Shown one piece after another: positions 21,037-25,458 of a stretch of DNA of 32,643 bases (its first letter is position 1; every line of letters begins with the position of its first letter). A program made the position numbers and the translations under genes. The stretch comes from an uncultured bacterium. GTDB lineage: Bacteria > JAAXHH01. The stretch covers positions 1-32,643 of the forward strand of contig CAJXCW010000023.1 in the NCBI GenBank assembly GCA_913051705.1, given 5' to 3'. The notes beneath the pieces were generated by a model. That model did not search any database. It was not told the origin of the DNA and was given only the letters and a program-made list of their open reading frames with translations.

Positions 21037-21651
21037 TTACACAATCACAAGCGCTTCTTTGAGGGTGCTGACGAACACTTCCAGCTCATCCTGTGTACCG
21101 ATCGAGACGCGAAAATGGTTTTTGATATCCCACCTATCGTGCGCATTTCGTACCAGCACTCTTTTTTTGCGTAGATAGCTGATGATATCCCCGGGATCTT
21201 TCCCCATATCGAGTACCAAGAAATTGGTTTCACTCGGCGTAAAGGGAATGCCCATTCCCTTTAATTGTTGCGCCAGATATTCCCGCCCCGCCCGTATGGC
21301 CTCTTTCGACCTGCGGACGTGTTCGGTATCTTTCAGGGCGGCCGTTGCAGCGTAAACACTCAATGTAGGCATCATCATCGTCCAGCCTGAATAGAGCCAG
21401 GAATCTTCGAAGTTCTGTGGGTCCCCGAACGCGTAACCCATACGAACGCCGGGAAGACCGTATACCTTGGAAAATGTACGGGACACCACCACGTTCGGGC
21501 GGGAGATGGCATAGGAAGCGGCGTTCTTATAGTCAGGACCTTTCACAAAATCGATATAGGCCTCATCAATAATAACGAGGACATCTTCCGAAACATTATC
21601 GAGGAACCAGCCTATGTCCTCATGCGACACCAGCGTAAAAGACCGGATCAT
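21037..21651 (-). pseudogene. C-terminal two thirds of a HisC-like aminotransferase, 5' part missing
   Basis: The 204-residue frame matches the later part of histidinol-phosphate/aromatic aminotransferases: VLVIIDEAYIDF (PLP Asp and Tyr), VVVSRTFSKVYGLPGVRMGYAFG (PLP Lys in TFSK), and the closing FRVSIGTQDELEVFVSTLKEAL. The first 150 or so residues, including the N-terminal arm and the NPNNPTG loop, are absent; homology begins at TLVSHEDIGWFLDN. The putative start ATG overlaps the stop of the alpha/beta hydrolase gene (ATGA), so a truncated polypeptide may be made, but it should be inactive without the cofactor-binding N-terminal part. Confidence 0.75.
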
Positions 21652-24425: not shown

Positions 24426-25316
24426 ATGACGATAACCGAATTAATCAGATTACGATGGCCTTTGATCTTGGCAGGTTTGGTCTTCATGTTGGGTTTATGG
24501 ACGGCGGCCACAGCAGATCAGGGTTGGTTGCGTAAGGGCCCCGATATGGATGGGTTTCAGCAGATCATTCCCCGGGACGCTATTTCGTCTATCGACCGAC
24601 CGGAATTCAAGTCGGCGGCACAGGCTCGTATTCCGGATTCAGCATGGATTTTGGGCTTTGAGATGGACGGGCTGGCCTATGCCTATGACCTGAATCTCCT
24701 GAACACGCATGAGATCGTTAACCATACCGTGGGAGATCAACCCATTGCGGCTGTATGGTGACCATTGGCCCAGACGGCTGTAGTCTACAGTCGTGAAATC
24801 GATGACAAAACCTATACATTTGAAGCCAGCGGCGCCCTGCTCAACGCCAGTCTGGTCATGCAGGATAAGGAAACCGACTCTTACTGGTCTATTATGACCG
24901 AAGAAGCGGTGTATGGTGAAGCGAAAGGAAAGAAATTGGAGCTATTGCCCGGAGCAACCAAAACAACCTGGGGGATATGGAAAATAAAGCACCCGAATTC
25001 ACTTGTCCTGTCCTATGGCGGACGGGAACATGCCCCCGCCGATTCTTACCTGTCTTATTTCAGATCGAACCGTGGGTTTCGAGGCATTCAAACGAAAGAT
25101 GACCGTCTGGCGAATAAAGAGATGATTTACAGCTTTCATAGGAGCGGAGCGCCTCAAGCGATTCCTCACAAGAGTTTTATCGACGGTGGTGTGGTGCGCA
25201 TCAAGGACAGAGCACTCTTTTTATATCGTGAGGAACAAGATTCGTTCTATCAGGCGACCACATCATGGAAGCCCGCTAACCGTAGAGACGAAATACATGA
25301 GGTCTCTGTGGTGTAA
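24426..25316 (+). CDS. DUF3179 protein with an in-frame TGA: candidate selenoprotein
   Basis: Codons 1-111 encode a signal-like helix (about 12-28), the RDAISSIDRPEFKSA block and HEIVNHTVGDQPIAAVW. A TGA at 24759-24761 (codon 112) follows. The frame then stays open for 184 codons and continues the same family: PLAQTAVVYSREIDDKTYTF, SGALLNASLVMQDKETDSYWS, KLELLPG and TTWGIWKIKHPNSLVLS. In DUF3179 proteins I know, the segment reads VxVTxCPLCxxAVVF, so the TGA falls on the first conserved Cys, and the second Cys is Ala here. A hairpin with bSECIS-like geometry starts 12 nt after the TGA. The full product would be 296 residues with Sec112. AAAGGGG lies upstream of the ATG. The role of the family is unknown. 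A plain nonsense mutation is the alternative. Confidence 0.8.
24774..24794 (+). promoter_or_regulatory. Candidate bacterial SECIS hairpin
   Basis: ACGGCTGTA (24774-24782) pairs with TACAGTCGT (24786-24794) over nine pairs (one G-U) with loop GTC. The loop begins 21 nt after the TGA and its first base is G, within the spacing (about 16-37 nt) and loop rules reported for bacterial SECIS elements. It is in coding sequence, as bacterial elements are. Confidence 0.7.
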
Positions 25317-25327
25317 GATCAAACAAA

Positions 25328-25357
25328 ACAGCCCCTGGAATATCCACCAGGGGCTGT
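25328..25357. terminator. Strong GC-rich hairpin after the DUF3179 gene
   Basis: ACAGCCCCTGG (25328-25338) pairs perfectly with CCAGGGGCTGT (25347-25357) around an 8-nt loop. It begins 12 bases after the stop. The plus side lacks a clean T-run; on the minus strand TTTTGTTTG follows. It probably ends transcription in at least one direction. Confidence 0.7.
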
Positions 25358-25381: not shown

Positions 25382-25458
25382 TATTGGAACGGTCGACCAG
25401 GTGCAGCGTCTGGGAAGGCTTTGTAATACCTCGCCGCACCCGGCCGACCGTTCCAATA
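25382..25458. repeat. 77-nt structured inverted-repeat element
   Basis: TATTGGAACGGTCG (25382-25395) pairs with CGACCGTTCCAATA (25445-25458), followed inward by CC/GG and GGTGC/GCACC, with only two single A-C mismatches. That is 21 pairs around a 31-nt loop. It may be a MITE-like element or a structured RNA. The remaining sequence up to 25693 shows no gene or clear signal beyond an AT-rich upstream region of the next gene. Confidence 0.75.

Follow-up and report, generated by a model that had tools for sequence, protein, structure and literature searches.

A probable selenocysteine-containing DUF3179 protein from an uncultured bacterium and its TGA-encoded relatives

Results

A DUF3179 gene interrupted by a single TGA codon

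The gene at positions 24426..25316 on the forward strand of the window, the 32,643-nucleotide stretch of DNA from an uncultured bacterium analysed here, is very likely a well-supported additional selenoprotein of the DUF3179 family, and so belongs to a known family rather than to a new kind. Judged from the sequence, insertion of selenocysteine (Sec) at residue 112 is highly probable. The earlier note's proposal that Sec112 replaces a cysteine gains strong support, because the genome encodes the Sec machinery, hairpins are kept downstream of the codon, at least 117 relatives carry TGA at the same codon, and TGA is found in 18 of 18 close relatives collected by searches blind to the codon.

Between the ATG at 24426 and position 25316, the sole interruption of the reading frame is a TGA at 24759..24761. 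Read through, the product is 296 residues long and gives one match to Pfam model PF11376, spanning the TGA, at 167 bits against a cut-off of 27, while the halves on either side of the codon score 41.5 and 103.2 bits separately. The match covers profile positions 1-231 of 292, and membership in DUF3179 by Pfam score holds despite the absence of the end of the domain. The TGA position, the numbering of Sec112 and the length of the product had all been given correctly in the earlier note. The predicted product contains a single selenocysteine and no cysteine at all. Its N-terminal hydrophobic stretch looks like a signal peptide, and a structural model places a helix at residues 3-30. Searches returned no NCBIfam match for the protein and no Rfam match in the window.

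In a first alignment with 11 cysteine-containing homologues, nine from plasmid records and two from genomes of the same order, the TGA codon aligns with cysteine in all 11. The codon lies in a core motif region, HEIVN-x12-UPLA (residues 95-115, 24708..24770, forward strand), of which it forms the first position of UPLA. Thirteen residues are invariant across 49 sequences: P59, H95, E96, V98, N99, Sec112, P113, L114, G136, L138, D147, W154 and G164. The column thus holds TGA or cysteine in relatives and is conserved, as the earlier note had supposed. That note had also aligned the TGA with the first cysteine of a CPxC segment; the placement at the first cysteine stands, but there is no CPxC pair, since the fourth residue of the window motif is alanine.

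Three other features of the window stand out. Right after the gene's stop, at 25330-25355, is a strong hairpin (agcccctgg/ccaggggct), terminator-like and with no good run of T. Just downstream, two 27-nt arms, 89% complementary and 23 nt apart, form an inverted repeat at 25382-25458 that may be a small element, either mobile or structured; the only fetched locus to contain the arm sequence is L001, and this is the same place. At 21037-21651, an ORF for an aminotransferase of class I/II matches its profile only from position 163 to 360 of 361; an alpha/beta hydrolase overlaps the start of this ORF, which looks like half a gene.

The genome encodes selenocysteine machinery

The presence of Sec machinery had been named in the earlier note as a check on its reading, and selA, selB, selC and selD are all found in the window's genome (5.45 Mb in 405 contigs, 97% complete, 5.7% contamination). 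SelA is encoded on contig C231 (506 bits) and SelD on contig C41 (285 bits); the gene for tRNA-Sec, selC, lies on contig C222 directly after selB (69.6 bits, anticodon TCA). The N-terminal part of SelB (409 residues, 316 bits) runs off the end of contig C156, and the C-terminal part starts contig C222, with a 17-nt in-frame overlap between the two contigs. The short tip of C222 ahead of selB (first bases of the reverse complement, L034) is chimeric-looking, and an assembly chimera splitting selB is probable; we take this tip to read like ribosomal protein L23 over about 70 nt.

SelA scores above the cut-off in 15 of 16 genomes of the phylum, and the Sec trait therefore belongs to the lineage. 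With this number of contigs and this level of contamination, it is conceivable that the gene and the machinery derive from two organisms, but similar G+C and the generality of selA in the phylum count against such a mixed origin. Two further genes in the same genome, candidates of AhpC/TSA type, have TGA at the position of a redox cysteine (SASWUPFC, contig C26, L190; WASWUACR, contig C72, L191), each followed 20-21 nt downstream by a hairpin with a G in its loop.

Two observations on the machinery genes stand apart. The SelD on C41 (L192) carries an NAD(P)/FAD oxidoreductase-like domain at its N-terminus, the fusion forming a single frame of 739 residues. Besides selA, the genome has a more distantly related SelA-like gene (C2:19438-20763), which scores 247.6 bits, below the cut-off, and is found in most genomes of the phylum as well.

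A SECIS-like hairpin downstream of the TGA

A hairpin at 24774..24794 on the forward strand pairs 24774-24782 with 24786-24794 in a 9-bp stem around the loop GUC (24783-24785), which begins after 21 nt from the TGA. Folding and the bacterial SECIS (bSECIS) criteria printed in PMC13188914 agree with the hairpin as the earlier note had described it. It resembles the general bSECIS model in its 3-nt loop of G then U, 9-bp stem, 21-nt spacing and energy below -7.5 kcal/mol; no difference from the model was noted, and the hairpin is a typical example. Alone it folds at -9.9 kcal/mol. The 50-nt region around it folds at -15.9 kcal/mol, a value that stands out modestly from dinucleotide shuffles (z -1.8, 9/200), and an equally stable, correctly placed hairpin arises in 0.9% of 2,000 synonymous recodings.

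A correctly placed hairpin of -7.5 kcal/mol or better occurs in 53% of the 118 listed loci with TGA (window included), against 5.5% of synonymous shuffles. Over 116 distinct sequences, 76.1% of cells form the window's own pairs; the figure is 64.4 +/- 0.8% (highest 66.3%) in a control of 300 permutations exchanging codons for the same residue among sequences, which preserves protein and column make-up and leaves relatedness aside, so that the margin is not to be read as a probability. The pairs are maintained beyond what the protein sequence explains, and the hairpin keeps a fixed distance from the TGA. Because about half of the listed Sec loci are without a strong perfect-stem hairpin by a simple criterion, and because one of three cysteine homologues (L212) has by chance a hairpin within the energy limit at another position, the hairpin criterion alone is not decisive.

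TGA-bearing relatives in many phyla

Relatives were sought over genome contigs with a degenerate DNA pattern, HE..N-x12-U-P-L, that requires the TGA and is TGA-biased by design. It returned at least 118 stretches, and after one stray match was dropped, what remained besides the window was at least 117 DUF3179 genes that carry the TGA at this codon. Among the matches listed, such loci occur in at least 18 named phyla, and of 19 genomes with DUF3179 TGA genes, 17 have a tRNA-Sec that scores above the cut-off. The residue three after Sec, over the 118 listed loci, is cysteine in 66 (UPLC), alanine in 32 (UPLA), threonine in 9 (UPLT), and valine, serine, aspartate, glutamate or leucine in the 11 others. 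A scan of genome contigs with the single protein found no relative, and phage records yielded no homologue. Comparison by eye of gene neighbours in 12 relatives found no shared partner. A DUF3179 gene is absent from all 13 other genomes searched in the same family, a distribution that would fit horizontal gain or wide loss.

In a tree of 91 sequences, the window protein falls in a clade of 13 members with SH-aLRT support of 100, all of them UPLA. Because the starting set for the tree had been chosen by TGA, two phyla, represented by 396 and 80 genomes, were searched with a profile of the clade in a manner blind to the codon, stops being read through. All 11 matches above 375 bits in the first phylum, and all seven above 299 bits in the second, have one TGA. 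Seventeen of these 18 matches, three of which were already in the tree, were read, and every one has the TGA at the same codon, in UPLA. Further down the ranking, from about 215 bits, TGA and cysteine genes are mixed. Whether the window clade constitutes a distinct DUF3179 subfamily, in which Sec is obligate, no cysteine version is seen and Sec stands alone without a resolving cysteine, in a putative exported enzyme spread across several phyla, is in our estimate evenly balanced.

Alternative readings of the TGA

The TGA might be a nonsense mutation or an assembly error in an ordinary cysteine gene: it lies one base away from a cysteine codon, and the C-terminus is shortened relative to relatives, as can happen in decaying genes. 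The earlier note had thought a chance mutation unlikely, and the relatives bear this out, since the same codon is TGA in all 18 codon-blind members of the clade and in more than 100 wider relatives. The 184 codons past the TGA, moreover, contain no stop and are conserved as protein, and the hairpin is correctly placed with its pairs kept across the family. A nonsense mutation is thereby largely refuted, and we give it, together with assembly error, very little chance. We hold to be similarly improbable a pair of proteins, namely a 111-residue product that stops at the TGA and a second that restarts at the TTG at 24765, where the mechanical ORF does begin. The division would fall inside one Pfam domain at its invariant cysteine and leave two partial folds, while the TGA and hairpin are kept by relatives across phyla; the split reading was rejected on these grounds.

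Reassignment of TGA to tryptophan or glycine in this genome would likewise keep the frame open, and nothing more speaks for it. TGA terminates 11 of 24 plausible genes of the window and is thus an ordinary stop there as well, which refutes a changed code; the column is cysteine in homologues, rather than tryptophan or glycine, and a tRNA-Sec with anticodon TCA is present. The chance of reassignment is, in our judgement, negligible. Insertion of Sec at the TGA is the reading carried forward below.

A shortened C-terminus

The window copy ends about 50 residues early compared with close relatives, every one of which, among those examined, has this C-terminal region; alignments show the segment GFDTFWYNW to be missing. 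The second DUF3179 repeat, at 25119..25316 on the forward strand, is accordingly short at its C-terminal end in alignments, and confidence in the structural model drops there. The copy may be impaired through this loss. It is conceivable, and in our view unlikely, that the Sec codon is real and the window copy a non-functional or altered remnant, perhaps left after horizontal acquisition. In a high-confidence model of a full-length relative, the missing residues make up the last strands of the second repeat, and the lack of a DUF3179 gene in the other genomes searched in the same family points the same way. Against a remnant, there is no further stop codon, the hairpin is intact, and the Sec-bearing first repeat is modelled with high confidence. 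Identity to the relative L200 is 59% before the TGA and 66% over the 118 codons after it, and most of the changes fall on third codon positions, the pattern that translation into protein would produce. Constraint at the protein level is at least as strong after the TGA as before it.

Structure and possible function

Profile comparison by hhalign (E 1.4e-29) identifies the two halves of DUF3179 as an internal duplication, and the model of a full-length relative, L151 (mean pLDDT 95.8), has two similar strand orders. The first repeat contains Sec112; no cysteine is conserved in the second. The model of the window protein has a mean pLDDT of 85.5, good over the first repeat and below 50 at residues 285-296.

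A search by sequence for a solved structure found none, and Foldseek against the PDB returned nothing below E 0.001 for either the window model or the full-length relative. The best solved structural matches are Rieske ferredoxins, on which the first repeat (81-185) superposes over 91-100 residues with rmsd 2.6-3.6 and Z about 7, the tool's stated background level for Z. The CxH...CxxH cluster ligands of the Rieske domain are not present as such, and profile comparison, with probabilities of 8.1% and 0.5%, lends the resemblance no support. Separately, a predicted protein of Indivirus ILV1 (A0A1V0SD44) matches the fold of the L151 model in Foldseek (E 4.6e-7, 214 columns), and a DUF3179-like protein in giant viruses is possible on the strength of these models.

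Beyond the computed features, which are the family assignment, the TGA at the cysteine position, the conserved hairpin, the machinery and the TGA-bearing relatives, we infer Sec insertion, export and redox chemistry along the following lines. With the hairpin that follows 21 nt later as its guide, SelB would deliver Sec-tRNA(Sec) to the UGA of codon 112, and translation past the UGA would give the 296-residue protein with one Sec and no cysteine. Sec112 would take the place of the family's invariant cysteine; it lies in the first of the two beta-rich tandem repeats, and the invariant residues His95, Glu96 and Asn99 are close by. The protein would be exported, and, because UPLA offers no partner cysteine, any selenium that became oxidised would need a thiol or reductant from outside the protein to resolve it. 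Sec is generally used at redox sites. Since the lone Sec adjoins the invariant histidine, glutamate and asparagine, the most likely role by analogy is that of a putative exported redox enzyme of thiol or peroxide type, or a selenol nucleophile, dependent on an external reductant. That Sec112 itself serves as catalytic nucleophile or redox residue is a tentative suggestion, to which we give somewhat less than even weight.

Discussion

The earlier note took the gene for an undescribed selenoprotein, and this was not borne out. Two reviews, PMC9312934 and PMC13188914, include DUF3179 (pfam11376/PF11376, motif UxxC/T) in their tables of selenoprotein families, and plasmid records are already named 'DUF3179 domain-containing (seleno)protein'. 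Both reviews cite a single earlier study for the family, given in PMC13188914 as Zhang and Gladyshev 2007, NAR 35:4952, on an Olavius algarvensis symbiont. The window protein shares with the tabulated selenoproteins the Pfam family, Sec at the same conserved cysteine of the CPxC segment, and a hairpin of bacterial SECIS type just downstream. It differs in that the tabulated proteins are UxxC/T, whereas the window clade is UPLA and entirely Sec, with no conserved second cysteine, and the window copy is C-terminally short. Cysteine-containing DUF3179 proteins, found in haloarchaeal and cyanobacterial plasmid records and in two genomes of the same order (G014, G015), have the same domain and the same HE..N / C-x-L segment, but they encode cysteine, mostly in CPLC or CPLT, and fall outside the window's clade.

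UPLA lies outside the printed motif UxxC/T, which describes examples and is not a definition. As a motif it is too narrow for the listed Sec loci. The literature examined gave no description of a UPLA clade with Sec only or of the broad spread over phyla, and a literature search found no paper joining 'selenoprotein' and 'Poribacteria'. What may be novel is the window clade itself, always UPLA, always Sec, and without a conserved partner cysteine.

Automatic annotation would break this gene into two truncated ORFs; the analysis supports reading it as a single selenoprotein. Sec-containing DUF3179 genes, in at least 18 named phyla, reach far beyond the one symbiont study that the reviews cite, and over a third of the listed cases fall outside the printed motif. 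A subfamily that seemingly always uses Sec would be a good place to ask why selenium is needed in place of sulphur.
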